Positions 972 through 58,278 of a DNA stretch of 64,000 nt are shown piece after piece (the stretch's first letter is position 1; every line of letters starts with the position of its first letter). The notes under the pieces were generated by a model. That model was given only the letters and a program-made list of their open reading frames with translations, did no database searches and was not told where the DNA came from. Position numbers and translations under genes: made by a program. This DNA is from Hirudinaria manillensis (taxonomy: Eukaryota; Annelida; Clitellata; Hirudinida; Hirudinidae). Location: contig CM067537.1 in NCBI GenBank assembly GCA_034509925.1, positions 1,109,501 through 1,173,500 on the forward strand, read 5' to 3'.

Positions 972-2226
972 CTTTGCCGATATAAACAACCACGTAATGA
1001 ATGTCGTAGACGTGAACCAAATTTATCGAGAGTGTGCGGCAGGCCACTTCCAATGTATCATACCTATTTGGATCTTTATCTCCGTCGGTTATTTTTGGCA
1101 GTACTTTGCCGCATCCACTGGCAACTTTGTTCAGAGCAATGTTTACCGCAATAACAGCTTTAAATAAACATATATGATATATGTTGGGTAAAATCACTAG
1201 CATAGTGATTTGAAATCAAATCATATGCAGCTACAATGATTTCAAATCAGAATCGTGATTTTTTATTTTGAAAATAAAAAAAGCATTGGAAAGGCGGGAA
1301 TATATAATACACATTTCACTGACTTTATGCTTTAATTAAATAATAACGTTCAACTACATAAAACAATATTTATTTATTTTCATAAGCAATATTTTTTTGA
1401 AAATCTTGTCCTTTAACCTATTTCTCTTTGGGGTTTCTATCAGTCCTGCAGAGCTATAAAGTTTCTGTAGAGGAGATGATGACGGTAAGGTTGTATTGCA
1501 TTTTATGAAGGTTCTTTTTACAATGTCATTAGCATTTAGCTAATGACTGGTCATTATCCAAGAAATATGCATTCACTTTGTACTTCACTGTGCTGTCTTG
1601 TGGAGATTTTTGTTGGCTTATATTACAATATCCATACCCTAACCCTAATCACTGTCTCTAGGTTCATTTCCTCATCCAAAACTTCTTCGACATTAGCAAA
1701 AGCTATATCCTCTTCCTCCTCCTCCTTTTTGAAAATCATGGTTTGTTTGATTTTAAAATCAATTAAAGATCACACCCAGAAAAACGATTTAAAATCAAAA
1801 TAAAAAATCACGATTTTGATTTTAAATCGTTTGATTTCAAACACTCCCCATCAATGCATATATCTTACATCACTATTATGATTACAACGGAAGTCTTCAT
1901 AAGTTGCAACAATTGAAAGTTGCTGATACTGCCAAATGTGCATATATGAATTATATACTAATTCTGTTTTTATGAACTATGGGAAACAAATTCAGTGCCT
2001 GTTTCTTGTGGGTGAGAAAAGGCAGCAGCTTGAGGTCCATCATTGTTGAAAAGCAATGCAGTAAATGTAGTTAATTGATTGCATAATTTAAGCATGCGTA
2101 GTAAATTTATAATAACATAATAATGAGGTATTAAAGTTTATACGAATGCCAACTTGTTTTCGTTTCTTGCCAACAAATTAAGACTGCCATTAGCGTGATA
2201 AAATTCAGAAGCAGGCATGTCTTCAT
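972..2226 (-). CDS. Receptor copy 1, 5' part only (signal peptide and first lectin exon)
   Basis: Two minus-strand exons match the start of the family. Exon 1, 2154-2226, encodes a 24-residue signal peptide (MKTCLLLNFITLMAVLIC...) and ends in phase 1 at a GT donor. Exon 2, 972-1157, starts after an AG and encodes the first half of the FTP/F5-8C-like domain with the family signatures VNIALNK, ITDGDKDPN and IHYVVVY, again ending in phase 1. The intervening intron is long because it holds a foldback repeat. No later exon is seen before the window edge, although the next one normally lies 200-500 bases away. The gene is either truncated or has an unusually long second intron. No in-frame stop or frameshift is present in the two exons. 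Confidence 0.6.
1204..1848. repeat. Candidate MITE / foldback element in intron 1 of copy 1
   Basis: The two ends are imperfect inverted copies. The left end reads GTGATTTGAAATCAAATC from about 1205. The reverse complement of the right end, near 1848, reads GTGTTTGAAATCAAACG. A second pair of arms, ATCGTGATTTTTTATTTTG at about 1252 and its complement near 1785-1825, extends the inverted repeat. The middle (about 1280-1730) carries no convincing coding sequence. I could not identify a clean target-site duplication, so the superfamily is unknown. Confidence 0.45.
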
Positions 2227-3466
2227 CTTCAATAAATTCTTTGCCTTTAACGCATTTTAATAGAATTTTTGTGTTGTAAAACAAATATTAAAGTTATTAC
2301 AAAGAGGACATTTACAATGTTTATAAACGTTGTTTATGTTTACTAAATAGTTGCAATATTCAAAACAACGAAAGTCTGATAAAAAGTGAAACCCTAGCCT
2401 AAAAATAAAATGCAAAATAAAAATAATAGATCTAATGTGTAAAACTGCAAAAAAAACCCCAATAAATTACATAAATAAATCTATTTGGTCTACGTTCGAT
2501 ACTTCGAAACAAAATTCTCACCTTGCGCTATTACTAGTTTTAAATATTCAGTCCCGCCAATCGACAAGAAATGTTTTATATATTAATTAAGGTTAGGGTT
2601 AGTTGTTTAAATTAATTTTTCTTTATAGTTACAAAGAAATTATAAATAATGCATAATTTTTCAAAACATCCCAAAAAACATCGCTACTAGGACATTCTGG
2701 TAAGATTTTACTTTTATCCGCTTATAAAGATGATAGCTAAACGTAAATAATATTTGATGAATTTAAATGTTTGATTTTTTACTGCATTTGACTTTTTATT
2801 GGTCGCTGGGGGACACTGGACAAGGTCTCAACATCAATGGGCGGAGCTGAATATTCAAAGTAATAATAATAATAATATGGAAGGGGTGAAGCTAAAATTG
2901 TTTTGAAGTATTGAGCATAAATATAGGAAATTTTCAGTACTCCCAAGCTTTTATTTTCAGTCTCACAAATTTTCTGAATTTTCGGTATACATTTAAAAGA
3001 AATTATTGCGTTTATTTCGACTTAAAAGCATGTTTTTAACTAAATATTAAAAACAAAAAGTTGTATCAAATTTAAGTTATGCTGACATTAAAATTAAAAT
3101 GCACTGTAATATATGATCCGACAAGATTAAACAAGTTTGAATTACTATTTATTCTCATCAGGTAAATGTTGATTTACATTTTTTGATGGACATACAGAAA
3201 ACATTCTCAAAAAAATGATAAACTTGATTAGTACATTTTTTAATTTTTTTTGTTGTTAAAATATGTTATTAATGCACCAATGTAATCGAGGTCAATTCAA
3301 GACAGGCTTTGAATGTTTTCTGATTAAAAATAAGATTAAGATTATTTTAAACTTCTGATTATCTTCAACAGTCAACTTTGTCTTCCGTTGATCTGATAGT
3401 CTTTAAATGTTAACTATCAAATCTAATTGTTGAGGCAGTCGTTTGACCCCAAAAATTCTGAAGGCT
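2227..3466. other. Intergenic, copy 2 to copy 1
   Basis: This 1.2-kb A+T-rich spacer should contain the promoter of copy 1 and the 3' end of copy 2. From about 3040 onward it is part of the duplicated unit and matches 9645-10112. No RNA gene or further exon was seen. Confidence 0.5.
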
Positions 3467-6400
3467 TTAATCGTCTGAAGCTGTACTTCCACTAGAAGAG
3501 ATATCGCTGCTTTTTGGCGGGAGATTGTACCTGCAAATATACGTTTAATGTTTCCAAGCATTAGTTATTTGTTAAGTTGCAATAGATGATTAATTCAAGA
3601 AAAAACAAATGTTTTTAGAAATTTAACATTTTTAATGCAAGTTTTATCGCTCCCATAATAACCGCCACGATAATTTGGATAACAAACTAGCGACATAATC
3701 ATTTACATGGAAATATGATTACGAAGGCATAATTAATACTCAAACAGGATGGCGTGAGTTAGCATTGATACGGCGTGTCATGCCATTTCCAGAATTATCT
3801 TCAGAATATGAAAGCAAAGGACGGGTAGACCTACCCCAATTTTTTCCACTCGCCTATCTACTTATTTACACCATTCATTCACTAGTATTTGAATCACACG
3901 AATAATTTATTTATTAATTTTTATCTTTAATTTTTCTCTTTAATTCTGTTTCTTGTTCATAATTAGTCCTTATCAAAACAAATGTCAATCGGCCAATATA
4001 CTTTTCACTTACCACATTAATCCAATCAAAATCATCAACGAAATAAGTGGTAATAAAATCGATTCTGTTAATAAATGTTTTAATAAATCATCCTGAGGAT
4101 TTCCTAGGTCAACTGCGAGAGTTTCATTGTCTGAAATAATATTATTCCATTTACGAACACTAATTACTATCATTATAAAAAGCATTACTCTCCCAATATA
4201 TTTATCCATCTATATCAATATATTCAGTTAACCTCTAATTGTTTAATCCGTTTGATAATCTAATTTGCTTATTCGCCGTCACCATTTGTTTGCTTCGGTT
4301 TGAAATTAACATTTGTACGCATTAGTTTTGGATAGGGCAATACTTGTATTAACATACTTCGACAAAGATCTTCTGTCACCCTTGTGTATCCAATCTTGCA
4401 TTCGCAAAAGTACGAACCGTTGGTGTTCATGCAAATAGTAACATGAGTGTCACACGGTTCGAAAATGCATTCATCGATATCTAAAATTACAAAAGAATTT
4501 TTGTTAAACATTGTTTGCTTAGCCCTGGATTCAAAACACAATATGTCATCTTACCCGTGCATTGACCATATGAATCATTTTTTGAATATCCGGTCTTGCA
4601 TTGGCACGTTTCCTGACCCTTGTGCAAAACGCATTCTGTATTCATTATGTTTATGCACAAATCCCCGTCCTTACAGGCAATAGAAATGCTTTCTGATGTC
4701 ACTGTTTTAGCTAGGTTAGTGAAAGAATCCTGTGGATCCTCCGCAGATGTTGGACTGAACGAGTGAATCACTTCGACAAAGAAAAAAGGTATAATGACAT
4801 TATATTTTCGTTTTTTCTATAACTTCTACTTCCATTATAGTAATAATTTTACTTCAAATTCGGTGCACAGGAATTAACAGGATTTAAGAATAATAATATT
4901 CTACATTATGTATTTATTGTCGCACTATGTATAAGAAATGGACGTCATAGAACTATGTCTCTTGTATGTAAAGAACTCAGATCCTGTCGAAGACTTACTA
5001 AGTGACATTACGAGTCTAGAAGAAAGTCTTGCACGTATGTGGACGTTTACAGATTTCTATCAGTTAATTATTGAGGGAGGAGGGTTCCAACCCATGTCAA
5101 CACTACGGACATTGAAAAAGCAGAGCGCAATCAAAATCGAAATAAAGCATAAGATCCCGAATATTCATTAAACAAACGGACTGATACAGAATAGTAGATC
5201 ACAGCCTGTTTCCACAACTAAACTAAATCACAACGTCGTAAAATGATGGCAACATCACAAATTGAACAAAAGTTCTAAAAGATACAAAAAAATCTCAAAA
5301 AGAGTACATCCAGAGTGCATATTCCAGCACTAGTTAAAAAAGAAGAAATCTTTATAACTAGACCCTGCATGGGTAAATGTTTCATAAATCTTAGAGAAAC
5401 AGCAGATTCCAAGACTTAGACAATTAGGCATTGTTTATTTTCCAAGCCATCTGAACACTTTCAATAAACCTGACCTTCCTTAATTAGTTTGAGGAAACCT
5501 CAACCTACTGGGTTATATATGATATATATATATGTATATTGGCAAGTCGTAATGTTGATAACCCAGTAGGTTGCGTGGAAACATCATTGAATTTTTGAAA
5601 TAAATATAAAACTTTTATAACCTAAAATATAAAATCTTTTTTAACAAAACGAATACATCATACAAGTATATCTGTCTGTTACAAACACAGCCGAATATCC
5701 TAAGTTCAATCTAACCTGGTTTTTTGGGGGTGTATTTTTTCGCAGTTGTAATTCTTCTCGACCCTACTTTGGATAGACGATACAACGTGGTAAATATCAT
5801 TGATTTTATGGTAGAATAAATGCTGGGTACTATAATTTCTGTGAAAACTAAAAGTGAACTTTCGGAACCTGTTTTGGATATGTAATCCATCCCAGAAATC
5901 CATTCTTTGGCTAATGAATTAGTTGAAAAGGATATAATTGATTATTTGTTAAATTAAATATGGTTAAATGCAAACACAATGTTTTTTAAATTAAATACAA
6001 TCACTCTATAACAGCTAAATTAAATTTAAGATAATATCTTTAAATTCTATACTTTTGAATATGATCTTTAGGAATTTGTAATACCCAATTATGTTTTTTT
6101 TTAAATAATGCATTTAGCCTATCTTTTGATATTATATTTCGGTTAGGATGTGAAAGGACTTCTTAGTGGCTCTAAAGTTTGTGCAGTGTCCCCATCTGAG
6201 GGCGCATAAGGTATCTAACACGATGCATAATGCTGCCACCGCTGTCCTTAGAAGCATCTGCCACTCCTTTGTAAATGGTCAATTGGACAGAGGAAAATAT
6301 CGTTTCTTTTTTTTTAAATCAAAATTATCACAAGAATCTTCGATTATATCAAAAAGAAAGGTGGGGAAGGGAGATACGACATCATTTTAAAATTCGAATA

Positions 6401-9350
6401 TTCGAACTTATTTTGGAGTAGTTGGTCACCAAAGATGAGTTTTCTTGCAATCCTCCAGTAAAAGCAGTAAAAAGACTTAAATTAGTGTTATATTAATAGC
6501 ATTTAAATTCTAAACTAATCAATGATTTATCTATGATTTATGTTACTACTAACCATGGTCTCAGGCAAATGGTCAAATTAAATATTACCTTTAAGAAACT
6601 AGTTATTTAATTGAATTAAATCGTTATATAAAATTTCTCTGGGGCCGACTGCATGACAAAAACAAATGCGTGATAAATACAATATAATCCCATTCCAAAA
6701 TTATACGAAATTATATAAATTAAATCTATTATAAAGAAATAGTGTATTACTAGTAAAATTTGTATTGAAACGTATTCGTTATATTTCTCAATGAATTGAA
6801 AACCACCTCGACCAAGACAATAATCACCCGTGAACCCTGGTTTGCAACCACTCAAACAAACGCCGTATTTATCGTAATCGTCGCATCTGAACAATCTCGA
6901 ACAAGGAATAGATGGTGATGGTTTTAGGCAAGCTGTTGACAAAACGATGCATTCCTGATCCTTTTATTCTCCACCCATTTGTCATTTTTTCTTGGTTAAT
7001 GAAGCAAACTTTGTCTCACTCTCGTATATAGAAGCGAAAATATATCCTCCGCAAGATTCGCCGGCATTTCCCGTGCACTTTACATTGCATCGATCATGAT
7101 GACTGACATTCTTGGCAGGAATACCCTCTTGGCAAAAACACTTGTCTCCCTCCTCGAAAAGTTAAATTCAAACTAATATTCGTCACAGAACGTCGAAAGG
7201 AATTGCGCGCTAATATTTAGTTTCACCTGGAGTACGGCGTACAGACTGGTGTCGCAATGTTTAAGACATATGTCAATGGTCATTTCACCGGTCAAAGCGT
7301 CTGGAGGAATGCTTCCAGCTTCGAAGCAGCCATAATACTTTGGCAATGTAATGTGCGCTGATGTGGATAGTTGGAAATGTACTCAAATCGTGAAACGGAA
7401 TACAATTTTTTTTCAACCATATTCTTATTGAATGTCACTGGATTGTTTATATAGAATTCTTCTATACATTTTGACACTTAAATGCACTATTATAAATGTT
7501 TTGTAGTTTATACAAGCTAATATATATCGCTTAATTAAAAATAGTTGCTTATATTATAACATATGCTCTTTTACCAATTATTACGCATTAAATCCTGTTT
7601 TTTTTTTTCAGAAATAATGAACATGATTAATAACGACTAATGAAACAAAAACTAAAAACACAAATATATCAACCCAGGTACACAGAATGTAAGCCGTCAC
7701 CTCCGCAACTGCTTATACCGTCATCGCACTTCATGTTACAAGTCTCGGGAGGTAGTGCTCCACTTTCAACGAACTCGTTATGACAAATACAAAGAGAATT
7801 TTGCTGAGCCCACCGGAAGATTTGAGTATGACATTGTAGAGCAAGGGTATACAGATATAAAGTATTATCGTTTTAAAATATTATAAATTATATAAGAATT
7901 ATTGTTTTACCTTGATGGAGTAAAATACTGTGTGAATGGATGCACACTTTTTATGGCAGTTGTAGTGAACTGGTTCAGTGACTTGGGAGATAATTCCTTT
8001 TTCCTCATCTAAGTCTCTGAAACATCCACGGAATATTTTCAGTCTCTGGCCTGTTTGTTGCATGACTTGAGAAAACAAAAACAGATTAAATAAATCGATT
8101 AAACTCGTAATTATTTTAAACAATAATAATAGTATGCTAGAATTAGTAATAATTAACATACACTAGAGGATAGTAATAGTAATATAATCGAAGAAAAGTT
8201 ACTAAGTTGAATACTCTGGACCTTGACAGGGTTCCCCAATTCAGTTCCTCACCACAAAGGAATTTGGAGAGATTTGTTTATACAATAATTTTAACATAAT
8301 AATAAATAATTAACTCACTAAGACTATGGACTTCTATCTCGGAAATTGAAAGGCCATGATTTTTCCTCGACAGAACTTTTATACCACAGTGTATGCCTTG
8401 GTAATACTTGCAGTTTACCCTCAACTGTTCGTCGTCCGGCGAAATGGAGTCAGGAAATTCGCCGCATGGTATCCAGCGCATTCCATCCCCTACGTCAACT
8501 TGGAAGAAGTCCAATTGTCCGTATTTATTGTCTAAATGCAATAGATCCACTTCATATGAATAAATATGTTGGTTGTTAAATACATTAAATATGATTCTAT
8601 ACAGATAACTATATATTTATATATCTTATTCGATATATTTAATAGAATCAATATATTTATTTTTTTAAAGTTTTTTTTTTTAAATTTAAATTTAAAACTT
8701 TAATTCTACTATTTTCTTATTATATTTATCGAGAATAATTGTATTTAACAATATTTCTTCAATATTATTTCGGATAAATATTGCATTTGTATCAATTCTT
8801 CTTATTTCCGCATACAAAAAAATAAACAAGACAAGAGTAATAATGTTGGCAGTGATAATTCTACGCTAAAGTATTCTATTTCCAAAAGTAACCTCACCTT
8901 CTCCCGCGTAAACAATGACATAATGTACGGCATAGTATCCCATCAGCAACACTTCGACAAATGATTTCATCCCATTACAATCTTTTTCAACTTGAACGGA
9001 CAATTTAGGATTATGAATCCCGTCAAGAATTGCACTTTCTAGAGGTCTGCTTTTACAATCTTTGGCGTTTTTATTTAAGGCTATGTTGAGTGCGAGCAAA
9101 TCTGCACGGAAGTTATTGGTATATTTAGTGTTATCGGTGTTTTATGTACAGCCTGACAAATTTATAATTAAGTTTAAGAAAATTCAACATCTAAATGTCA
9201 GTATTTGAATGATTGAAAAACTATGATACTAAAATCGCTAAAGACACCGCCACTCAGGAATGCCAACAGCAATAAATCTAGATAATTCTAACTTGTTAGC
9301 AATTGCTGGTGACAAAGTGTTATTAGCAACAACTCGATAAATTTTGTCAT
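3467..9350 (-). CDS. Receptor copy 2: lectin-like / WSC / EGF single-pass membrane protein
   Basis: About 556 aa from 12 exons: 9293-9350, 8898-9101, 8319-8531, 7911-8065, 7674-7803, 7227-7357, 7020-7152, 6807-6932, 4555-4770, 4358-4480, 4013-4130, 3467-3530. Signal peptide 1-19, FTP/F5-8C-like domain 20-158 (NIALNK, VHYVIVY, SEIEVHSL), WSC 1 159-253, WSC 2 254-341, laminin-like EGF 342-383, EGF 384-455, calcium-binding EGF starting DIDEC 456-496, membrane helix in 497-535, Ser/Asp-rich tail. The start is the second of two overlapping ATGs: it alone gives a hydrophobic leader in phase with exon 2. The intron between the first and second EGF (4771-6806) carries a truncated LTR. The gene is the near twin of copy 3, differing mainly in exons 3 and 7. 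Probable surface receptor; ligand unknown. Confidence 0.85.
5391..5516 (+). mobile_element. Truncated LTR of the 28-kb-element family
   Basis: The sequence from TTAGAGAAACAGCAGATT to TAATTAGTTTGAGGA matches the 3' half of the solo LTR at 20952-21245. The 5' half is missing. It starts exactly where unit 1 stops matching unit 2, so it arrived with, or caused, the replacement of this segment. Confidence 0.75.
5502..5572. repeat. 15-bp perfect inverted repeat
   Basis: AACCTACTGGGTTAT at 5502-5516 is repeated in inverse at 5558-5572, separated by 41 bases of mostly AT repeat. The left arm begins where the LTR end should be, so the hairpin may be a product of the insertion or of its repair. Confidence 0.7.
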
Positions 9351-10112: not shown

Positions 10113-13100
10113 TTAATCGTCTGAAGCTGTACTTCCACTAGAAGAGATATCGCTGCTTTTTGGCGGGAGATTGTAACTGCAAATATAATATTTTATATAA
10201 TTTGGATAGAAAACTAGCGACATAATCTTTTACATGGAAATATGATTACGAAGGCATAATTAATACTCAAACAGGATGGCGTGAGTTAGCATTGATACGG
10301 CGTGCTATGCCATTTCCAGAATTATCTTCAGAATATGAAAACAAAGGACGTGTAGACCAACCCCAAATTTTTCCACTCGCCTATCTACTTATTTACACCA
10401 TTCATTCACTAGCAGTTTTTGAATCACATGAATAATTTATTTATAATTTTTATAGGTTTCTCTTTAATTCTGTTTCTTGTTCATAATTAGTCCTTATGAG
10501 AACAAATGTCAAGCGGCCAATATACTTCTCACTTACCACATTAATCCAATCAAAATCATTAACGAAGTCAGTGGGAATAAAATCCATGTTGTTAAAATAT
10601 GTTTTAGTAAATCATCTCTATGATTTCCTAGGTCAACTGCGAGAGTTTCATTGTCTGAAATAATATTATTCCATTTACGAACACTAATTACTATCTGTCA
10701 TTATAAATAGCATTAATCTCCCAATATATTTATCCATCTATATCAATATATTCAGTTAACCTCTAATTGTTTAATCCGTTTGATAATCTAATTTGCTTAT
10801 TCGCCGTCACCATTTGTTTGCTTCGGTTTGAAATTAACATTTGTACGCATTAGTTTTGGATAGGGCAATACTTGTATTAACATACTTCGACAAAGTTCTT
10901 CTGTGACCCTTGTGTATCCAATCTTGCACTCGCAAAAGTACGAACCGTTGGTGTTCATGCAAATAGTAACATGAGTGTCACACGGTTCGAAAATGCATTC
11001 ATCGATATCTAAAATTACAAAAGAATTTTTGTTAAACATTGTTTGCTTAGTCCTGGATTCAAAACACAAATGTCATCTTACCCGTGCATTGACCATTTAA
11101 TTCATTTTTTGAATATCCGGTCTTGCATTGGCACGTTTCCTGACCGTTGTGCAAAACGCATTCTGCATTCATTATGTTTTTGCACAAATCCCCGTCCTTA
11201 CAGGCAATAGAAATGCTTTCTGATGTCATTGTTTTAACTAAGTTAGTGAAAGAATCCTGTGGATCCTCCGCAGATGTTGGACTGAACGAGTGAATCACTT
11301 CGACAAAGAAAAAAGGTATAATGCCATTATATTTTCATTTATTCTATCACTTCTACTTCCATTATAGTAATAATTTTACTTCAAATTCGGTTTACGTGAA
11401 TTAACAGTATTTAACAATAATAATATTATACATTATGTATTTATTGTCTATATCACTATATATAAGAAATGGACGTCATAGAACAATGTGTCTTGTAAGT
11501 AAAGAACTCAGCTCCTGTAGAAGACTGTACTAAGTGACATGGCGAGTCTAGAATAATGTCTTGCACGTATGTGAATCCTTACAGAATTCTATCAGCTACA
11601 TTTTTGAGGGAGGAGGGTTCCAACCCATGTCAACACTACGGACATTGAAAAAGCAGAGCGCAATCAAAATCGAAATAAAGCATAAGATCCAGAATAATCA
11701 TTAAACAAACGGACTCCTACAGATTACTAGATCACAGCCTGTTTCCAAAAATAAACTAAATCACAACGTCGTAAAAGGATGGGAACATCACAAATTGAAC
11801 AAAAGTTCTAAAAGATACAAAAAAATCTCAAAAAGAGTACATCCAGAGTGCAAATTCCAGCACTAGTTAAAAAAGAAGAAACCTTTATAACTAGACCCTG
11901 AACGGGTAAATGTTTCATAAATCTCATGTAGATATTTTCATGCTTCGAGACAGCACGAAAATAAAACACGTGACCTAACAGCAAAGCAATGGTACAATAC
12001 TTCCTCTCGGAATGCAAGGAGAATTGAGAGAGCAACTGATGGAAGAAGGATAAAAATTATGTTAAACCAACCACTCAACCACCCTCAGGAACATAAAACA
12101 ATAGTGCACTATGGAAAACCGAAGAGTTATACTGTAAAAGTGGTCCAAATATTTCTATTATTATTGATCTAATTAATTATATCTAATCTGAATCTAATAC
12201 ATCTGATTAAGCAACTTATTTAAAATAAAATACGGACCAATGACTACGACAAAATAGAATCATAACCGATCGAATAATCAATTTATTATAAGGATCTTTG
12301 ATATGTTTATGACAAAGATGGACTTAATTGATTTTCTAAGCGATAGTTAGTTACATGTTTTATGTCTCCATAATTAAGTCGGTGTAACGCCTTGAATTCT
12401 CATATTCGAACCTGTTTTCGGGATGTGTTTTCTCGGTAGAGTACTTCCTTGCGGTAACCCTTTTGGTGGTCGATGGATAAAACAACATTTATTTTAAATG
12501 AAACTTATTTGTTAAGAGTATCTTTGTGAGTGTGAATTTTGCCTGCAATTCTTTCGGTTATCGATAGATTGAGGGAAAGGACATAATTAATTTTGTGATA
12601 TAGTAAATATAATAAATACAAGCACTTTTTAATTATTTAAAAAAAAATAAATGCGTTAAAAACATTTTCCATATTTAAAACAAATAGACAAGTATCATAC
12701 CTGGTTTTTGAGTGATGAGATGCGACGTGGTATTAATCCCTTTCAGATATCCTATGATAGCAATACGGTGTGATAAATAATATTGATTTTCTATTATAAC
12801 GATCGATACTATATATATTCATAAACGTAATGCATAAAATATAATCCCATTCCAAAATTATACGAAATTGTACACATCAAATCTATATTAAAGTAATAGC
12901 GTATTACTAGTAAAATTTGTATTGAAACGTATTCGTTATATTTCTCAATGAATTGAGTAACCACCTCGACCAAGACAATAATCACCCGTGAACCCTGGTT
13001 TGCAACCACTCATACAAACGCCGTATTTATCGTAATCGTCGCATCTGAACAATCTCGAACAAGGAATAGATGGTGATGGTTTTAGGCAAGCTGTTGACAA

Positions 13101-24299: not shown

Positions 24300-24343
<44 letters not shown>

Positions 24344-46700: not shown

Positions 46701-49700
46701 CAGTGCCTGCAGTTAAGTTGACAAGGACGTCGTGATAGCGCATCAGCGTTGTTGTGTATTTGACCTCTCCTGTGTTCAATTTTGAACTGAAAACCCTGTA
46801 GTCTTTCAATCCACCTCGCCATTTGACCTTCTGGGTTCTTAAAGTTTAACAGCCACCTCAGAGAGGCGTGATCCGTTCTTAGCAAAAACGGCTGGCCCAA
46901 AAGATATTTCTGGAAGTGTTTCATGGATTCTACTGCTGCCAATAATTCTCTCCTGGTTACGCAATAGTTTCTTTCCGCTTTGGTCAGTGAACGGCTATAG
47001 AATGCTAGAACATTTTCTTCGTTTTCAACCTGCTGGGAAAGAACTGCCCCGATTCCACAGTTACTGGCATCTGTATCGAGGATAAAAGGTAATCCGGGAA
47101 TAGGATATGCCAGGATCGGTGCCGTTGTCATAGCTTCTTTCAGATTATTAAATGCTTTCTCACAGCTGCCGTTCCAGATAAATGGCTTGCCTTTTACAGT
47201 AAGCTCATGAAGGCTTTTTGCGATGTTTGAAAAGTTGGCAATAAATCGTCTGTAATAGGTACAAAGTCCTAAGAAGCTTTGAAGTTCTTGGATATTTTTG
47301 GGTACGGGCCAATTTTTTACTACATCGACTTTATCTGGATCTGTACTAACACCTTCAGAAGACACGATATGGCCAAGGTATTTGACTTCTTTTTTAAAGA
47401 GTGAGCATTTCTTTGGACTCAGTTTCATGCCTGCCTCTCTAATCCTACTAAACACTTCTCGGAGGTTGTCTAAATGTTCTCCAAATGTTTTTCCGACAAC
47501 AATTATGTCATCTAAATATACCAGGCATACTTTCCAGTTGAGTCCCCTTAGTATGTGTTCCATTAATCTTTCAAACGTCGCGGGGGCATTGCATAGCCCG
47601 AACGGCATGACAGTGAATTGCCATAATCCTTCACCTGTCGAGAAGGCCGTTTTTTCTCTATCGTCAGGATGTAACTCCACCTGCCAGTAACCACTTTTGA
47701 GATCTAACGTGGAAAAAGTTTTTGATCCCGAGAGAGTGTCTAAAGTATCATCGATTCTAGGTAAGGGGTAGCTGTCCTTAAGTGTCATTTCGTTCAGCTT
47801 TCTATAGTCGACACAAAAACGAAGTGATCCATCTTTCTTTTTAACGAGTACCACTGGTGAGCTCCAGGGGCTATTTGACGGTTCAATAACCCCTTGGTCT
47901 TGCATTTCTTTTATCATTTCCTTGGCGTTTGCTCTTGTAGCTAACGGAAGTGGACGGGGGTTTTGTCGAATGGGTTTAGCACCGGCCGTATTTATTTGAT
48001 GTTGCACGAGGTTAGTCCTACCCAAAGGGCTGTCTTGTTCAGCCATTATATCCTGAAATTCGCTAAGCAGCTTTTCCGCTTGTTGATAATCTTCTTTTTG
48101 TAGGGTTTTGTTTAAATCTTTCAGGAGATTGTCCACCAATGGTTTAGGCATGGCATCCCTTTTTATATGCTTATTTCCACTTCCATCTAATGTTAATATG
48201 TGTTCTAGGTTCCTGCAAAGTGCGATAGGTGTTCCTGCTTTGATCTGTTGTTCCTGGTCAGATAGATTCATTACCCTCAGTGGAACTCTGCCGGTGTTTA
48301 GCTTGACTAGTGCTCGTCCTATTAGTAGTCCTTGGCCAATGCCCGATTGATCTTCGACTGCTCCTATACCAAATTTTGTGTGGTCGCCCTCTAGCCCGCC
48401 CCAAATTAAACTTTCCGACTGTGCTGGGATGGTCTCGTCCTGCAATACTTTTACAAATGTGTCTTTAATTTCTGTACCCCCGTAATTTAAAGGAATCTCC
48501 ATTGTTCCTTGTTGAAGGGTACCGCCCTTCATGTCAATGGAAATTCCATAGCGTCGCATGAAATCCAATCCCAGTATACATTCATCTGTTATATTGGCTA
48601 TCATAAATTCCTGTTCGAATGACTTGCCTCCTAAATCCACTGTAATAGTTGTGGTTCCTTGAACTGGCACTAATTCTCCGGTGGCTGTTTTTAGCTTGTA
48701 GTTGTTGGTCGTTACTTTACTGTTTCCTGCCAACTTTGGTTGGACAATAGATGTAGATGCCCCTGTGTCTATTACAAGATTATATTCCTTCCCTCCAATT
48801 TTTCCTTTAACATCTAGTGATGATCCTTTTCCCAATGCCGTAACGTGAAAGACGAGTGGGGCATTTCGAGTTTGCTGAAACGATCTTTGCCCCTTAAAAT
48901 CAGAAGCTTCAGGTTTTTCTGATTTATAGGGCTCTCTCCAGTACTGCTGTTTTTTGGAGAAGGTCGTTCTACATTCTCGGGCTAAATGGCCTGGCTTGTT
49001 ACACCTGAAGCACCTTGGTCTTCTATCTATTTCCTGGGATCTTAAGTTTCTTGGGGGCTTGCTGAAGTCATTGATTTGTCGGGCTATTTTTTTAATCATC
49101 TCTCTGTCTTTGTCATTATCTTTATCTTTCTCCTTGCCTCTGTTTTCCTGAGCTTCAATTTTCTTTACATTCAAGCTTTTTTGGATTGAGGCTCTTGCCG
49201 CTTCTATGGAGATTGCAAACGCCAATGCTTCATGGCTGGCCTTTATTCCATGAATTTTTAGTGCCATTTTGGTTTCCGCATCCCTTATCCCATCAACGAA
49301 GGCGTCAGTTACAATGTTTTCAATGAAATCTGTTGACTGTCCTGGATGGGCTAAGTATGCGAGCCTTCTGACATCAGCCTCTAATTCTTGGAGTGATTCG
49401 CCCTGTTTTTGCGTACGGTTTTTTAATTCGTTTTTATGTACTTCCAGCATGTGGCCATTCCCAAATCTTCTTTCCATTGCTTCTGCTATCTCCGAATAAG
49501 CTTTACAGTGCAGCATTGTTTGCAAAAGCTCGGCTGCCTTTCCTCGCAGTATCATTATCAGCTCTGTTGCTTTTTCCTCTTCGGTCCACTTGTTACGTTC
49601 AGCGGCAATTTCAAACTGATGTCTGAACACTGCCCATGGCCCTTGTCCGTCGAATAATGGTGGTCTTGTCGTTTTCTCTCTTCCATATGTCTCTGTTTTC

Positions 49701-52700
49701 GATTCATTGTATTTTTTAAATTTCTCTCTTTCTTTTCTCTGTTCTTCTTTTAGTCCATCTATTTCTGCTCTGACCTGTTTTCTTAAGTCGGCCATCTCCT
49801 GTTCCGTGTGTGATATGAGGTTGGCTACGTCAGTTTTTACCTCTTCCCGTAGGACATCCATGGCTACCTGGAAGTTGGCTATATCGGATTTCACATCTGA
49901 CCGCAAAATATCATTGTTGGATTGCATATCCGACCGCAGAGTATCAATGTCACATTTCATATCTGACCGCAAAGTATTCAAGCCGCAAGTCATATCTGAC
50001 CGCAAAGCCTCCAGGGCATTATTGTTGGCTTCCAGGGCATTATTGTTGGCTTCCATAGCAGTCTGAAGGGCTTCCCATTGTTTTTCTTTTTGAACCCCAA
50101 ATTCATACTCCGACGGATCGTGATTATTTTCCAAAAGCCATTCCTCGAGCCGTCCTTGCAGTTCGGCTTTTGGGCCAGTTGCATCCAGGCCTCGATTCCT
50201 TAGTTCTCGTCTCAAATCGGGAACGCGCAAATCGTCCAGTATTTTAGGTCCCATTTCTGTCGTTTTAAAACTCTGTCTCGCTGTCTTTTACCTCTAGTGA
50301 ATCGATATCCTTTTTACGACGTTAAATCCCACTCCTGACACCAATGTTGTAACCCGGGGTCTGATGAATTATTTAACGTAAGGATATCTTTATTGGATTT
50401 AACTAATGGCAAATACGGCTGGACGATTTGGTCGATTGCTTGTCCCGACGGAACTGAACCAATGACCCGAATCGCTAGATACGACTTTGAAACAAAAGAT
50501 TCCGAATATTAACTAAACTTAATTAATTAATTATTTAATTAATTAATTAATGTCAGGGATCCAACAATATGTTGTTAAAATAGAGATAGATTGCAAGGAT
50601 GACTAGCTCAAGTTAGACCGTAGTAGTTTTAAATTACGGCCATTGGGTATTAAGACCGGTTCATATCTTACAGCAATCAATGATCGAAGTCAATGCCTCA
50701 TTTTGATAAATAATACACTTTTGCAAATAAATCATTTCCAAAAATCGATCTCAAAAGAAGATCGGTAACCCAGGTACACCGAGATATATCCAACTCCACC
50801 ACAAATACCCTTTCCGTCAGTGCATTTCACATCGCAATGGTGCAGTGCCACTTCTTGCTTTTCATCGTAGGTAGCATCGCAGTAACAGTACTGGTTGTTC
50901 TGTTGAATATTAAATTGCCATTCTGTTAATAATTGGTCATAAATTTGACGAGAGACACTTTTGACGTCTTGTTATTGTAATGCTGCATGCGGAATAATTG
51001 GTGACCTTCGTAATGGGTACCTGGAGAAGTGACAGGCAAAAAGAATTCTAGGAGTCAGAAATGGGAGCATGAGTAGTTAGATTAGGATAGCATATGGCTA
51101 GGGAAAGTCGCTTAATAAAGATTTTTCGTGTCGTGCCTGAAACCCAGGAAGAATCTGACACGTTCGTAACTTGCGTAGCATATTAATACAGATTAAAATT
51201 TTTATTTCAAATGGGCAAGTAAGACACTCGAAAGAACAGATTAAATAGACATTTTTCTGGAAAAACTGGGATAAAATTAGCTTGTATCCGCTTCCATTTA
51301 CATATTTCTCAGGCTATGAATGTCATCGTCGTATAAATTTAAAAATCAAAATTACCATGACTCCAGAGAATAAGTAGCCGGATTTTGCGCAATCGGCAAT
51401 GCAACCGTAAATATATGGTTCATCAGGTGCCCTAGGTATGGTTCCAAATGTCTTGAAGCATCCGCGATAGTGCATCGGTCTTATATCTGGGTCGGTAGAA
51501 GCTAGACAAAGCAAGATATCGGACTATTTATTTCTTAAAAATCTGCTAGAGACATCTTAAAAACTCTACCAAGAGAATGAACTTCGATCTCAGATATGTC
51601 AAGTCCTTCCTTTACTCGACTTGAGATCAAGACGGTATCGTGCAGTAAATCGGTCGGCATGCAATTAACTCTCATTCCTGTATCTGATATAATGGTGGTG
51701 CCGGGATAGTCACCACACATAGCCAGAAAAGAGTTTTGATACACTCTGACCATAAAATAATCCAGTTGTTTTTGATTTGGGCCTGGGGGTTAAAGCAAAA
51801 TTATCATTTGGAATTAGCTTATATAATTATTTAAAATTACCTTCGGTTATCTAGCTATTATCTATGTTGTATATAAGTAATACGGTATTTTGAATTGTAC
51901 CTATTGCATTCAAATTATATCCATCGTTTATGATATATAATCCGTAAGATGATTTATTATCGACTCCACAGAACCTCTGTGGTTTTATTGTGACAAAAAC
52001 TGTTCATTATTTGATTTTATTGCAATTTTTAATGGTTTAAGAATATTAATTTCCGTAGAATAATCTACTCGACATTCTTAGCAGTCTTTGTACTAAAAAA
52101 CCAATCTTTTCTGGTAAAAGATTACAAAATATGAAGAAAGTGTTCCATCATTTGTAAGTTTGGCTTTTACCTTTTTTTCCTTTTACCGAAAGGAAAAACT
52201 TATTGGAATATTCTTTTGAATTAACATAAATAAAGAACGACAGAATTATTTAATTAATAAAAATTAGTTACATAATTAATGTCATTGCCAATTTGGACTA
52301 TTATTGGTTTTCTTATTTTGTTATTTATTGCGATTTATGATTCTAATTAGGTAAAAATGCAAGACATTTAAAAAAACGGCAAACCGTTTCCTGGATAAAC
52401 GATGACATAGTGAATAGCAAACGTTCCACACAGTTGAACTTCCACGTACGAATTACGGCCTCTGCAACGGCTCGAGGTCGACTCAAATATCTCTGGGTCT
52501 TTAATACCGTCCACCATGGTATAAGACAATGGCTGGTCAAGACAATCTGAAACATTTTTCTTCAGGGCCACATTTAGAGCAACCAATTCTATGGAGGGAA
52601 CACGAGGGTTTTACGGAGTTGTTCCCGTCCGCAATGTATAATGCGTAATTAACATCAACATTGGCTCAACTTTTTCAATTCATACCTGCTATTAGATGAA

Positions 52701-52749
52701 GATGGCACAGTGAAAAGACCCATAGAGTCGGAGGCGAAGTTTGAATCAT
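43765..52749 (-). CDS. Receptor copy 9: shortened form with one EGF, split by a retrotransposon
   Basis: About 436 aa, exons 52686-52749, 52385-52588, 51570-51782, 51356-51501, 50770-50899, 44875-45008, 44561-44693, 44345-44476, 43909-44011, 43765-43816. Signal peptide, lectin-like domain, two WSC domains, laminin-like EGF, then directly the membrane helix (VVVLLLQILLMFSIFGVIFLM) and a 17-residue tail. The second EGF and calcium-binding EGF exons are missing. Because those exons have phase 1 at both ends, their loss keeps the frame. The tail has no acidic or serine cluster, unlike the other copies. A full-length Ty3-type element lies between the WSC 1 and WSC 2 exons, giving an intron of about 5.8 kb. 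Whether the gene is still spliced correctly is unknown; the frame is open throughout. The last exon is the least certain. Confidence 0.78.
45078..45299 (-). repeat. 3' LTR of the Ty3/gypsy element
   Basis: 222 bases. On the plus strand it starts TGTTGTAACCCGGGG and ends GGGATCCAACA. It includes a TTAATTAA-rich stretch near its right end. It appears identical to 50345-50566. Confidence 0.93.
45301..45313 (-). other. Polypurine tract
   Basis: AAGGAGGGGGCA, read on the minus strand, immediately precedes the 3' LTR and follows the stop codon of gag-pol. It is the expected primer for plus-strand DNA synthesis. The same tract precedes the 3' LTR of the short element. Confidence 0.85.
45311..50254 (-). 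CDS. Gag-Pol polyprotein, Ty3/gypsy type
   Basis: 1647 residues in one uninterrupted frame, so no gag/pol frameshift. In order: SAP-like domain about 5-40 (VPDLRRELRNRGLDATG); coiled coil about 57-180 with repeated LRSDM units; capsid-type gag about 198-360; CCHC zinc knuckle 415-428 (CFRCNKPGHLAREC); aspartic protease with DTGAS at about 496; reverse transcriptase with YLDD at about 913; RNase H with DTDAS at about 1060; integrase with an HHCC zinc region about 1296-1336 and catalytic D/D/E at about D1365 (LDIAGP), D1425 (HSDQG) and E1461; a GPY/F-like module (WEGPYRI) near the end. No chromodomain and no envelope. All catalytic residues are present, so the enzyme set appears intact. An N-terminal SAP domain on gag is unusual and is shared with the short element. 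Confidence 0.95.
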   Translation of the reverse strand: MGPKILDDLRVPDLRRELRNRGLDATGPKAELQGRLEEWLLENNHDPSEYEFGVQKEKQWEALQTAMEANNNALEANNNALEALRSDMTCGLNTLRSDMKCDIDTLRSDMQSNNDILRSDVKSDIANFQVAMDVLREEVKTDVANLISHTEQEMADLRKQVRAEIDGLKEEQRKEREKFKKYNESKTETYGREKTTRPPLFDGQGPWAVFRHQFEIAAERNKWTEEEKATELIMILRGKAAELLQTMLHCKAYSEIAEAMERRFGNGHMLEVHKNELKNRTQKQGESLQELEADVRRLAYLAHPGQSTDFIENIVTDAFVDGIRDAETKMALKIHGIKASHEALAFAISIEAARASIQKSLNVKKIEAQENRGKEKDKDNDKDREMIKKIARQINDFSKPPRNLRSQEIDRRPRCFRCNKPGHLARECRTTFSKKQQYWREPYKSEKPEASDFKGQRSFQQTRNAPLVFHVTALGKGSSLDVKGKIGGKEYNLVIDTGASTSIVQPKLAGNSKVTTNNYKLKTATGELVPVQGTTTITVDLGGKSFEQEFMIANITDECILGLDFMRRYGISIDMKGGTLQQGTMEIPLNYGGTEIKDTFVKVLQDETIPAQSESLIWGGLEGDHTKFGIGAVEDQSGIGQGLLIGRALVKLNTGRVPLRVMNLSDQEQQIKAGTPIALCRNLEHILTLDGSGNKHIKRDAMPKPLVDNLLKDLNKTLQKEDYQQAEKLLSEFQDIMAEQDSPLGRTNLVQHQINTAGAKPIRQNPRPLPLATRANAKEMIKEMQDQGVIEPSNSPWSSPVVLVKKKDGSLRFCVDYRKLNEMTLKDSYPLPRIDDTLDTLSGSKTFSTLDLKSGYWQVELHPDDREKTAFSTGEGLWQFTVMPFGLCNAPATFERLMEHILRGLNWKVCLVYLDDIIVVGKTFGEHLDNLREVFSRIREAGMKLSPKKCSLFKKEVKYLGHIVSSEGVSTDPDKVDVVKNWPVPKNIQELQSFLGLCTYYRRFIANFSNIAKSLHELTVKGKPFIWNGSCEKAFNNLKEAMTTAPILAYPIPGLPFILDTDASNCGIGAVLSQQVENEENVLAFYSRSLTKAERNYCVTRRELLAAVESMKHFQKYLLGQPFLLRTDHASLRWLLNFKNPEGQMARWIERLQGFQFKIEHRRGQIHNNADALSRRPCQLNCRHCNNAEKKQETEECRQIRITAPEPWTESGLRDLQLRDEALAPILQWMEAGVKPDWQQIAEHGEVTKSYWAQWDSLRISNGLLHRKWETEDGTDYHLQIVLPRSCVSEVLQEFHNGTSGGHLGVNKTIRKVRERFYWLHYKQDVEEWCRNCNNCATSKGPQKKTKGLMQLYNVGVPFERIALDIAGPFPASKKGNRYILVISDYFTKWTEAFALPNQEAENVADALVNNWISRFGVPLELHSDQGRNFESKIFQELCENLGIHKTRTTALHPQSDGMVERFNRTMEQYLSKMVTEQQDDWDRYLPLFLMAYRTAVHKTTGISPSKMTFGREIRLPADMMFGRAEEPKSACDYVSSLRNTLADTHQVARKNISVNSDQAKARYDRQANDISFKENELVWLYNPQRKKGKSPKLQKDWEGPYRIIKKINDVVYRIQKSARTRMKVVHSNRLAKYHGETEQPVRDEQI
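50326..50343 (-). other. Primer-binding site, tRNA-Leu
   Basis: TGGTGTCAGGAGTGGGAT follows the 5' LTR after one spacer base. It is complementary to the 3' end (with CCA) of typical animal leucine tRNAs. Confidence 0.8.
50345..50566 (-). repeat. 5' LTR of the Ty3/gypsy element
   Basis: Partner of 45078-45299; no difference was found on reading the two side by side. Confidence 0.93.
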
Positions 52750-53548: not shown

Positions 53549-56500
53549 TCATTGTAACTTTGCTGAGACCGGTCGAACCGACACATTAGGATCGCTTTCG
53601 CTGCTCAGTATTGGGTCAAAGTATCTAAATTTAAAATAAATATACAAATTATAAATTAATGCTAAGTTAAAATAAATGAATAAATAACAATTTACTTAAT
53701 GAGTTGAAACCTTTAACAATATAATGACAAATAGAACCGGCTGAAAATCACTGGGTTTGAGAAATTTGATTTCAGAGACTGATTATAAACTTTAAAGAAA
53801 ATATTTAAGATTTTCGAATGCTTATCAACAATGAAATTGCAAAAACAATCCAGAAAAACATTTACCTTAAGAAAGCAGTAAAAACCAGGACTGAACCCAA
53901 TGACAAAGCGATCATGGTCTGTGGGCTCAAATATCCTAACAACCCGAATGATGGAAATCTGTGAAAGTCGGCTGCAAAGAAATGAAGTATTATTTAACAC
54001 CGTTAAAAAATTGAGATTATCTCTTCTTTCTTTTTTTTGTTTTGCTAAATTATTGAATATTAATGATAATCTGGCACGTAATCCTCATATTACATTACAC
54101 GTCAAGAAATGTGCTTTCATTCACGAAGAAGAAACAGCAATCAGCAACTTTACAAACATTCAAAGCTTTAGAATTAACATGCAGAGAAATTGCATTGCAG
54201 TCTGTTCATAGGTGGGCAGTGTAAATTGACTTCCAAAGGTACGAAATACAAAGAACAGCTTGGCGGTTAGGAATGAAACCAGTTAAACGCAATAGGATCA
54301 ATAGAAGGACAGAAGTCAGTACCACGACGAGTAGGATTTCTTTTTAATCACAGAAATGCGAAATTATCTCATCAAATACCTACCTAGGCAGATATCACTT
54401 GACCTGTTGCTGATGTAACCCGTCTTGCAATCACATTTGAAGGAGCCATTCATGTTCAAACAAGACGAGTATCTGCTGTCGCATGGGTCGAATTCGCATT
54501 CATCGATATCTGAAATTGGATTAAAATCGGTTTTTATTAAATGAACAAATTATTTTTTTATCATAATAATACCTTAATAATATCTCAATAAACACGACAT
54601 ATGAATTTTTCTGTAATTGGCCTTACATTAATGAGAAGAAGTATATACTATTATTATTATTAACTAGAGGTGGCCAGCGTTGCCGTGGCCCAATCTGATT
54701 AATTTTATAAGAAAGAAATTTTCTAATATGTTTATTTTTTACAATTTCACAATGCTTGAGGGTTACTATATTTTAATCTTTTTCACGTCCATGGCAAGAT
54801 GGCAGGATTTTCGAAAAAAGCGTCATTTTACAAGATATAGTTGTGGCCTAATCGAGCACTATGTTGTGTCAAAATTTCAAGGCAATTAGTTAAGTACTTT
54901 CAGAGAACATTTACATAATACAAAGACACATTGCTTTATTATTTATACAGATATTATTATTATTATTATTATAAAATTAATACAATTATTTTAAGATTAT
55001 AATTTTAATTATAATAATAATAATAACTCTCCATAATTATAAATAAATTATTGCCTCTGAAAACACACGGTCACCTTCGCACGTGTTCTCTACAGCTGTA
55101 TATCCAACAATGCATTGGCACTCCGCCTTGCCTCTGTGGACGATACACTGTGCGTTTGTCCTATTTCCACACGGATCGTACTCCGTGCATATTCGAAGTC
55201 TGTTGTCGATTTTTTCCGTGTTTCTGTAATCCTTGTATGTTGGAGTCGTTGGGCTGATATCAGTGCTGGTCATTATTCCAATGGCCTTCTCAGTACTTGA
55301 CTTTGTACTTTTGACTTCTTGCAATGTTATCGCTAACATATTTGTTATTTATTAAATAAAGATACACTCGTAGATTACAACGAAAGGTAGCTTAATACGC
55401 TTTCATCTAGACTGCACAATCCCTTTTTATTTACCAATTGTGAAAAACAAATATTAATTAGTACTATGGAAATCGTGATTTAGAGTTTGAAAGAAGTATC
55501 ACCAGAAAGGTTGTAGTACATATAATCGAAGCCCTAAACTTTAGGCCTCTGACCCTAACTTGTCTCCCAACATTCTGCCCCATTTTTAACTGAATATTTA
55601 CTTCGTTCAAGGCAGTGATCACCAATGAATCCTTGTTTGCAAGTACCTCCACAATCTCCGTACTTATCATAGTGACCGGAGCATTTGAATAATTTTGAAC
55701 AAACTGGTGATTTTTCAAAGGGTTTTAAGCAAGCTGGTAGTCAAAACATTAAAAAATTTAGTTTTTTGTTTATTAATAATAATGTTTATTAACTGATAGA
55801 GACATGATTTAAAATAGTCTCGTACTTCTGTAGATCGAAATATGACCACTCCCACCACAAAAACTTTCAGGATCTCCAGAACAGCTTGTCATGCATTTGT
55901 TGAACGTGACAACATCCGACAGGTGATTAAATTCGCTGCAATAGCAGACGTTGCCTTCCTTTTTCGAAATAACTTTAAAATTATTTTGACAATATTTGCT
56001 GCTGAAATAGAATTAATTTAAAAATTGATGTCCCAGTATTTTTTTTCCCCTAACTTTTACCAGGAGAATAGCGAAGTGTTGAATTTCGCAATGTAGAAGA
56101 CATTTTTCAATGGTCATGTTATTCCTGATTGCCCCGTGATCTGGATGGTCTTTGGCCTCGAAACATCCTACATAACTGGGAAGTCTTACTAGGACTGAAA
56201 CGAAGATCGAAAAAAGAATGAATGAAAAACTGATGTGCTAAAAATAATGATTTTGAAAACAATTCGCGATAAATCTGTCTACATACTGAGATATACCGAA
56301 TAGGCCTCCAGCCCGCCGCACAATTTAGTATCGTCTTTGCATCTGAAATTACATTCATTGGCAGATATCTCGTCATCTTCCTTATAGTCAGAACCGCAAT
56401 AAAACCAGTCGTTAGCCTGGCAAAATATCACTTTAGAATGATTAATAGATTATCATTGGTGTAGTACAGCTCCAATTTAATAATTTGTTCGTGACATATT

Positions 56501-58278
56501 TTATTTATACAGATTTATTAGTATTAATAATAAGAATTTCTCTTTACTATCACGTATTATATTATTATTATTATTATTAATTTATTTTTTTTTTAGTATT
56601 TTATTGAACCTTTATGCCGCAAAACTTTTGTGATCCACACTTCTGTCGACATCTGTCCAACGGGTCCTCAACCCGGGTACCATTCTCCTCTTCACCGAAG
56701 CTACTGAAACATCCTCTGTACATCAGGAGCCAATCACCGGCCAATCCTGAGGCTTTTCAACAAAGTATTTTTTACCAGATTAAGAACCCACTGTCGTCCG
56801 AACAACGAATTTCATTTGAAGAGAAATTGGAAAAGAGCCAAGTTACCGAGCGTGTGCACTTCGAATTCGGAAATAAAGAGACCCTCGTTTCTCCTGGATT
56901 CAATTTGGACGTTTGAAGACTTCTTCTCCGTTGAGTCACAGTTGACTCTCATGCCACGACCCGGACCCAGATGCTTACCAGGGTACGACGAACAGGCCGA
57001 CTTTTCCAGACGGGCTTTAAAGAAATCCAGTTGTTTGCCGAGTGTTCCGTCAACTCCTTGTGGGAAATGACTTGTTGCATTAATCAAAGATGGTACTAAT
57101 CAATATTTATGAGAAAGCGCAGTCGAATGGATATCTGTTATTCTTAAATATTTTAGTTTGCATATTTTTTTTAAAATTGTCTTTTGTTCTCATTATTTCA
57201 TTATGTTGTGCTCGGTCTATCCTAATGTGCGTCGGCAGTGCCTTGACATCCTAGGACTTGGATAAAAAAGGCACTTAAAATATTGGAGGAATTGAATTGA
57301 ATGGAGGAAAGTGACCAATTCCAATTTTGTTGGTTCACCACCTCTCTCCATGGAGTTTTTAAATTCAAAAGCGCCGTTACCATTTACCAGTGACAAATTC
57401 ATTTGCATTGAAGAGAATTTAAAGAATTGCAAGAATATTTATAAATTACTATTTCCTCCATAAACGACTACGTAATGGACGTCGTATGATCCGTTCAAAT
57501 CAACTTCTACGAATGATTTAAAGGCGCACGGTTTCTCCATGATTTCCGCTTTGTCGAAGTCTTTGATCCCATCGAACATAATGTCAGACAAGTGCCTGAG
57601 GAAGCAGTACTTGGCCTTTTTTCTCAGGGCTATGTTGACTGCAATCAACTCTGCCAATTGTTAAACCTCAATTTTAGTTCATTAAGTTTGAACGGATGAA
57701 AATGGGCTGCGCAAATGGTTTGGGAACGCCAGAGATAGAGGAGCTGGAAGTCGAAAGAAGAAATTAAATATCGATGAATGAACCATTTTTTTAAATAAAT
57801 ATTTTATACGTATAGTTCGTCAGTTAATAGTTATGGCGGGTTGGATAAGGTCGATCCGCGATTAATGGTCCGGGATTTGGCTGGGTGGCCCATGTGTAAC
57901 GGCTGGGATTAGGCTGGGTAGCCCGGGTTTAATGGCTGGGCAACCCGAGACTAATAGTCGGGATTTGGTAGGGCAACCCGAGCTTAATAGCCGGGCAGCA
58001 CGGGTCCCTTGCGGTCAAAACCTACGCGGGACCCGCGAATATGCCCGCCCGGGACCCTCGTGGGCCCCCCTGGGGTGTGTTTGCTGGGTAATTTTTACAA
58101 CATTATAGTCAGTAAATAGCTCCTTTTATAATTAAAATAACTGGAGCTAAACCGATGTATATGTTTTTATAATTTTTTAAAGTATATAAATATCTTTATA
58201 TGAAATAATATTACCTGTTATTAGTAACTGGTAGAAAAGTGCGACCGTGAATGTTTTAGTTGGTCTTGATATTTTCAT
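53549..58278 (-). CDS. Receptor copy 10: lectin-like / WSC / EGF single-pass membrane protein
   Basis: About 568 aa, exons 58215-58278, 57450-57650, 56847-57056, 56610-56746, 56287-56416, 56061-56194, 55826-55958, 55602-55733, 55075-55332, 54384-54509, 53866-53971, 53549-53624. Signal peptide 1-21, FTP/F5-8C-like domain 22-158 (VNIALRK, VHYVVVY, GMRVNC, SEFEVHTLG), WSC 1 159-247 (YRGCF...CGG...YSVYL), WSC 2 248-336 (YVGCF...CGG...ISIY), laminin-like EGF 337-380, Ser/Thr linker and EGF 381-466, calcium-binding EGF 467-508 (DIDEC), membrane helix MIALSLGSVLVFTAFL, 25-residue tail. It is the 5'-most member of the array, divergent from the V-ATPase gene and among the most distinct in sequence. 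Intron 1 holds a GC-rich minisatellite. WSC and lectin folds bind sugars in other proteins; the ligand here is unknown. Confidence 0.87.
57237..57285. repeat. Dispersed stem-loop repeat, copy B
   Basis: Same AGTGCCTT / AAGGCACT arms and CATCCTAGGA core as 16307-16355. It lies in the intron between the two lectin exons of copy 10. Confidence 0.6.
57834..58090. repeat. GC-rich minisatellite in intron 1 of copy 10
   Basis: Imperfect units of about 33 bases (consensus near GGGATTTGGCTGGGTAGCCC plus GGGTTTAATGGCT) give way to a GC-rich end with GGGACCCGCG-type sequence. It is strikingly richer in G and C than the flanking introns. Units become more diverged toward the right. Confidence 0.8.

Follow-up and report, generated by a model that had tools for sequence, protein, structure and literature searches.

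We analyzed a window of 64,000 nucleotides on contig CM067537.1 (C12 below) of the leech Hirudinaria manillensis, corresponding to C12:1109501-1173500 of a 148.4 Mb genome in 23 contigs. Exon-by-exon modeling identified ten copies (g1-g10) of a gene predicted to encode a multidomain surface receptor. All lie on the minus strand within window positions 972-58278, from the putative start codon of g1 at 58278 to the end of exon 2 of g10 at 972. Nine exon profiles were built from the same copies, with the plus strand and flanks serving as controls. They gave 81 matches in window 1-58300, comprising the 80 exons of the ten copies and one weak relic exon (37710-37763, E 4e-4). All 81 are on the minus strand, in agreement with a preliminary description of this DNA as a one-strand, head-to-tail array; no matches were found on the plus strand, in window 58301-64000, or in the 54.5 kb beyond. 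The ten-copy tandem array is real. The same description counted nine complete genes and one partial gene. The total of ten stands, and the number complete through the third EGF-like exon, with exons 2-10 all present, is eight (g1 and g3-g9). Exons 9 and 10 of g2 were looked for and none was detected, and the only break in g10 is the window edge, beyond which exons 3-10 of this copy lie at C12:1106321-1109027. The spacers, given earlier as 0.5-1.3 kb, are corrected to about 1.2-2.1 kb, measured between the last EGF exon of one copy and the start codon of the following one, with membrane and tail exons counted in. Relic exons were also claimed; the single weak one is the only one we found.

The exons follow the order signal peptide, head domain (exons 2-3), first WSC module (WSC1, exons 4-5), second WSC module (WSC2, exons 6-7), three EGF-like exons (8, 9, and 10), and membrane exon. 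Every modeled exon 2-10 is flanked by AG and GT, consistent with GT-AG introns, although for several copies the 5' end of exon 9 is uncertain. Intron phases are conserved and are phase 1 except for a phase-0 intron within each WSC module. Candidate signal-peptide exons were identified in all ten copies, those of g1 and g2 from hydrophobicity and a splice site only. Membrane exons were placed by similarity in g3-g9 (clear in g3, g4, g5, and g7; weak in g6, g8, and g9); the assignment in g2 is ambiguous, and none was placed in g1.

A Pfam scan covered seven of the ten copies (g1-g5, g7, and g9). Two WSC stretches above the cut-off were identified in each of the seven predicted proteins, and EGF_CA above the cut-off in six, the exception being g2, which lacks the exon concerned. 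Exon 8 is EGF-like through its cysteine pattern only, and exon 9 falls mostly below the Pfam cut-offs. The two WSC domains and the EGF stalk of the preliminary description are thus upheld, and its three EGF modules are upheld in part. Neither a TB domain nor a CCP domain was found in any of the seven proteins.

The head domain is almost invisible to Pfam in single sequences (F5_F8_type_C_2 in 2 of 18 members, best E 7.6e-4), and its fold was assigned via a profile search. A profile of 18 heads against 177,635 PDB sequences returned four matches at E ≤ 10, every one an F-type lectin: 2j22 (2.4e-6), FBP32 (0.0016), and two constructs of Sm-hPAF (0.0029 and 0.0057). By sequence profile only, the head is assigned an F-type-lectin (jelly-roll) fold, in line with the FTP/F5-8C-like tip domain proposed earlier. 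A review gives the fucose-binding motif of F-type lectins as HX24RXDX4(R/K) and the cation motif as h2DGx (PMC5712786). We aligned 34 heads to 2j22 and FBP32 and scored these motifs. The complete His-Arg-Arg fucose triad occurs in 0/34 heads and no head has more than one of the three basic residues, with one triad column in 7/34 heads being a gap from a trimmed exon match. The DG of the cation motif is present in 31/34 (hydrophobic and last positions not strictly scored), and all 34 have at least four cysteines. Because the triad is complete in none, the sugar binding that had been ascribed to the tip modules is unsupported for the known site.

Further evidence comes from P0014, a 532-amino acid protein from a 2,152-nucleotide contig whose source code, 'lgn', we take to mean the Logan assembly of public reads. 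It was the sole protein returned by a search with a ten-row family profile, and it matches the first query row at 46% identity over 99% of the row (E 1.7e-139). P0014 spans exons 2-10 and continues into a hydrophobic helix, after which about 21 residues form a tail; by eye, its first residues are similar to the end of the g5 signal exon. Because the 2.15 kb contig carries 532 codons in one unbroken frame, versus about ten introns over several kb here, we infer that it is most simply a complementary DNA (cDNA). P0014 supports the predicted exon joins, membrane helix, and short tail. With the clear membrane exons of four copies, it sustains the membrane helix of the preliminary description, apart from g1 and g2. 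Among 28 compared copies its best match is g6, and it falls in a clade with g5 and g6 (support 100/99). If P0014 comes from another species, part of the array diversity would predate the species split. Searches for relatives found this one full-length homolog. They detect only sequences that have five-residue words in common with the query and hence do not show that Helobdella or other annelids lack the family. We discarded a misplaced alignment of P0014 with 76 window exons. AlphaFold models of P0014 as a single sequence (mean predicted local distance difference test score, pLDDT, 33) and with 16 exon fragments (mean pLDDT 43, about 16 alignment columns visibly misaligned) were too poor for use.

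The family extends well beyond the window. In C12:1.000-1.263 Mb, 23 minus-strand copies or fragments occupy at least 167 kb in a run that begins at the edge of that stretch, followed by a 61 kb gap and then at least six plus-strand copies of a diverged subfamily. One copy outside the window is fragmentary, with exons 2, 9, and 10 only. Genome-wide counts are lower bounds. An exon-3 probe matched at least 99 places at E ≤ 0.1 (of 111 scored) and at least 78 at E ≤ 1e-3, 68 on C12; an exon-8 probe gave at least 121 matches at E ≤ 0.1 among 126 scored, and the WSC model at least 96 among 150 scored. Together with a young pair in the window, g8 and g9, these counts support the tandem expansion with recent duplicates reported earlier. 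We sampled one 10 kb stretch on each of C11, C2, and C4, and the WSC-WSC-EGF order recurs in all three. A head exon was not detected in C11:3406001-3416000 or C2:4278001-4288000, both with two WSC modules and EGF-like exons; in the C4 stretch the head is diverged.

Divergence between copies is concentrated in one module. Using the 28 copies with six or more exons from C12:1.000-1.263 Mb, we estimated the ratio of nonsynonymous to synonymous divergence (dN/dS) by counting, pooling the five pairs of lowest dS (0.034-0.149) with each copy used once. The second WSC2 exon of copies -1078017 and -1065722 (labeled exon 5 and dropped as a double) was left out, as was exon 4 wherever no profile match passed. 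Pooled dN/dS is 1.76 for WSC2 (codon bootstrap 1.09-3.21), 0.88 for the head (0.63-1.27), 0.74 for WSC1 (0.47-1.19), and 0.52 for the EGF stalk (0.37-0.77); tip modules and EGF stalk differ (Fisher p 0.021). In all five youngest pairs dN exceeds dS in WSC2, on small counts. The WSC2 exons of g8 and g9 differ at 18/258 bases and introns 5-7 at 8/409, the intron counts having been recalculated from rounded rates (Fisher p 0.0016); the WSC1 modules of the two copies are identical. With a 9.8% difference in intron 8, this pair is a mosaic, which is consistent with partial homogenization.

Within WSC2, change is concentrated in the 12-16 residues between a CxC pair and the next cysteine. Mean pairwise identity of this loop is 0.136 in WSC2 versus 0.272 in WSC1 of the same 24 copies (0/2000 label swaps as extreme), and the residues after the loop are more alike in WSC2 (0.475) than in WSC1 (0.388). 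WSC2, above all its loop, diversifies between copies, and the stalk is constrained.

The transposon insertions of the preliminary description are present in two introns (Table 1). The element in intron 5 of g2 is 5,496 bp (5.5 kb) long, with 229-bp long terminal repeats (LTRs) that differ by 3 mismatches; stretches of its long frame give matches to SAP, zinc knuckle, aspartyl protease, reverse transcriptase, and RNase H, and no target-site repeat was found at the shifts tested. The 296-bp ends of the element in intron 8 of g5 (1,789 bp) are identical; its 385-codon frame yielded a SAP domain only, and short AT-rich candidate target repeats flank the element. Both are LTR-type with a SAP domain and look young by end identity. 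Stretches resembling the ends of the g5 element occur at 24334-24639 and 21065-21255 in inverted orientation. Other repeats include 54 perfect ATT units in intron 1 of g5 (31967-32129, about 40 bases upstream of exon 2) and an AT-rich tandem array with a unit of about 29 bases in intron 8 of g3 (39444-39881). Elsewhere in the genome we identified antistasin matches (63 among 150 scored candidates), 19 of this type inside 55 kb at C2:1723601-1778857, suggesting a tandem family of protease-inhibitor-like genes. Hirudin gave 1 match among 6 scored, its frame holding a stop. The antistasin and hirudin matches fit a leech genome.

Table 1. Receptor gene copies and intron elements, in window coordinates (~, approximate)
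Feature	Span	Strand	Signal-peptide exon	Exons from exon 2 onward	Membrane exon	Remarks
g1	54384..58278	-	58215-58278 (candidate)	F-lectin fold 57450-57650, 56847-57056; WSC1 56610-56746, 56287-56416; WSC2 56061-56194, 55826-55958; EGF-like 55602-55733, 55075-55332, 54384-54509	not placed	
g2	44345..52749	-	52686-52749 (candidate)	52385-52588, 51570-51782, 51356-51501, 50770-50899, 44875-45008, 44561-44693, 44345-44476		split by LTR element in intron 5
g3	38538..42992	-	42935-42992	42292-42498, 41840-42052, 41408-41559, 40996-41125, 40712-40845, 40500-40632, 40293-40418, 39049-39255, 38786-38911	~38538-38649	
g4	33163..36810	-	36738-36810	36382-36585, 35969-36181, 35741-35889, 34879-35005, 34565-34701, 34326-34458, 34131-34256, 33643-33954, 33412-33537	~33163-33274	exon 33643-33954 is Thr/Ser-rich linker plus EGF
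g5	26763..32245	-	32188-32245	31728-31928, 31219-31431, 30988-31133, 30787-30916, 30558-30682, 30290-30419, 29992-30120, 27536-27700, 27321-27446	~26763-26869	SAP element in intron 8
g6	21902..25490	-	25433-25490	25050-25253, 24719-24928, 24089-24234, 23875-24004, 23603-23727, 23300-23432, 23079-23207, 22668-22865, 22479-22604	~21902-22013 (weak)	
g7	16480..20364	-	20289-20364	19941-20144, 19589-19801, 19190-19329, 18976-19105, 18760-18893, 18375-18507, 17866-17991, 17404-17541 (5' end uncertain), 16935-17060	~16480-16594	
g8	10540..15502	-	15445-15502	15050-15253, 14476-14688, 14068-14222, 13831-13960, 13385-13515, 13178-13307, 12965-13090, 11082-11237, 10886-11008	~10540-10654 (weak)	young duplicate of g9
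g9	4016..9350	-	9293-9350	8898-9101, 8319-8531, 7911-8065, 7674-7803, 7227-7357, 7020-7149, 6807-6932, 4555-4710, 4358-4480	~4016-4130 (weak)	young duplicate of g8
g10	972..2226	-	2154-2226	972-1157		
g9 second WSC2 exon	7020..7149	-				carries variable loop (CxC pair to next cysteine); g8 partner 13178-13307
LTR retrotransposon	45071..50566	-				intron 5 of g2; not receptor sequence
Short SAP element	27915..29703	-				intron 8 of g5; not receptor sequence

These models predict a multigene family whose products are type I surface receptors with a single membrane pass; to date it has been seen in leech-type sequence only. The predicted protein begins with a signal peptide and an F-type-lectin-fold domain, followed by two WSC modules, three EGF-like modules (in some copies with a Thr/Ser-rich linker), one membrane helix, and a short tail. 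The copies would have been generated by tandem duplication, with signs of partial homogenization. The EGF stalk would raise the lectin-fold head and the two WSC modules above the membrane, where these distal modules could bind variable ligands, most likely non-self. WSC2 may set specificity, with its loop as the leading candidate site. Signaling or adhesion could proceed through partner proteins, given that the sole spliced tail has about 20 residues and no recognized motif. Copy turnover and the confinement of diversification to a tip module make an immune role our first guess. We give an even chance to the interpretation that this is a diversifying recognition receptor family, perhaps immune. 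A bolder version, in which this is a leech-specific, individually variable recognition locus whose binding tip consists of the F-type-lectin-fold head, acting on other ligands, and a hypervariable WSC2 loop, is possible, and we advance it only tentatively; it would give leeches an enlarged repertoire for non-self or self recognition of an undescribed kind.

Several points weigh against a diversifying recognition family. The tip modules pooled give a dN/dS of 1.01 (0.79-1.31), with WSC2 alone above 1. The 98.7% of bootstrap replicates that place WSC2 above 1 come from codons resampled as independent, which overstates certainty if gene conversion changes blocks. Among the young pairs, the +1238995/+1250946 loop can be aligned only with several indels, so that a point change, a shifted frame, and sequence taken over from another copy are indistinguishable; -1056551/-1039034 has no loop contrast (0.79 vs 0.83); and -1078017/-1065722 stands outside the loop comparison through its dropped second WSC2 exon. 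A 'lectin-like' head is not the same as a sugar-binding one: the known sugar site appears lost, and lectin activity is doubtful. Finally, P0014 and g6 match by eye at 8/14 places in the WSC2 loop and at 4/14 in the WSC1 loop. This one cross-species comparison would run opposite to a fast WSC2 arms race. The resemblance to immune or allorecognition loci drawn in the preliminary description holds for the concentration of diversification in the WSC2 tip module, and not for the sole comparison across species, which keeps the WSC2 loop better.

TB (8-cysteine) domains between calcium-binding EGF (cbEGF) modules define fibrillins. In this genome TB matches (8 of 14 scored candidates) all fall at C12:2669028-2689666, probably the genome's one true fibrillin gene. 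The question matters for a reading of the array as an adhesion or body-wall matrix family, in which structural surface proteins would adjust tissue stretch, as proposed for a leech 'FBN1' expansion. The EGF_CA modules and EGF stalk fit such a role, and a g4 search gave fibrillin-1-like names among EGF-driven matches. A 2023 GigaScience leech comparison describes twelve 'FBN1' copies in two bloodsucking species, linked to body swelling, with expression up during feeding (PMC10087013). Like the leech family, fibrillin (FBN1) has calcium-binding EGF modules, and best-hit annotation could confuse both; the seven scanned proteins have no TB and carry WSC, a predicted lectin fold, and a membrane helix instead. 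In this genome TB matches at one locus only, whereas the EGF_CA-bearing family is large. The published leech 'FBN1' genes may be this WSC/EGF family under a best-hit name, and in that case the 'fibrillin' expansion account of leech body swelling may rest on mislabeled receptors. That the TB matches are confined to one 21 kb locus (C12:2.669-2.690 Mb) outside the array argues against a matrix role, as does the WSC2 diversification, which structural proteins are not expected to show; we consider that role unlikely.

Alternatively, the receptors could form a recognition code for cell identity, gametes, or neurons, in which paralogs bind each other or partner proteins and not microbes. A single-pass protein with a short tail, a variable tip, and a constrained stalk suits a homophilic or matched-pair code as well as it suits an immune one, and the likeness between the WSC2 loops of P0014 and its best match, g6, suggests kept identities. 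Recent-duplicate arrays with copy turnover are, however, less usual for developmental codes, and a code of this kind seems improbable to us. Relaxed constraint, under which the tandem family would be decaying, its dN/dS moving toward 1 and its loop variation neutral, would account for the pooled tip ratio near 1, the missing exons and retrotransposon of g2, and the fragmentary copy outside the window, but it is very unlikely, given that the EGF exons of the same pairs are constrained, that 8/9 copies inside the window keep modeled exons 2-10 open with correct borders, and that the g8/g9 WSC2 exons outpace the adjacent introns.

If a diversifying recognition family is the correct interpretation, annelids hold an expanded, diversifying receptor family with a combination of modules not found described and a defined candidate specificity loop. 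In the open-access literature we found no description of an F-type lectin together with a WSC domain, nothing on the WSC domain in leech genomes, and no title naming this architecture. In the same literature, WSC domains in connection with transmembrane proteins and annelids turned up only in a mushroom study and in the glycerotoxin paper cited below. By term search, 'WSC' is absent from the main text of each of four leech genome papers (PMC10087013, PMC11897028, PMC7191736, and PMC7303139) and from that of the F-type lectin review (PMC5712786). The nearest annelid comparison is glycerotoxin, a venom protein of Glycera with two WSC domains and a calcium-binding EGF domain (PMC5336659). Compared by description, it shares with the leech family the presence of both domain types in one annelid protein. 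Glycerotoxin also has a CCP domain and a long C-terminal region with no known domain, and the passages on it in that paper mention neither an F-type-lectin fold nor a membrane helix; the seven scanned leech proteins lack CCP, and P0014 ends shortly past its membrane helix. F-type lectins (the fucolectins AAA, MsaFBP32, and 2j22) resemble the leech family in the fold of the head and the DG cation motif, and differ in that the leech heads appear to have lost the fucose triad, contain four or more cysteines, and occur in one protein with WSC modules, EGF modules, and a membrane helix. The SRCR proteins of sea urchin and sponge, Hydractinia Alr, Botryllus fuhc, and mollusc lectin/EGF proteins are likewise multidomain surface proteins that are expanded or change fast. 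Their domains differ from those of the leech receptors, and for some of them polymorphism or function is known.

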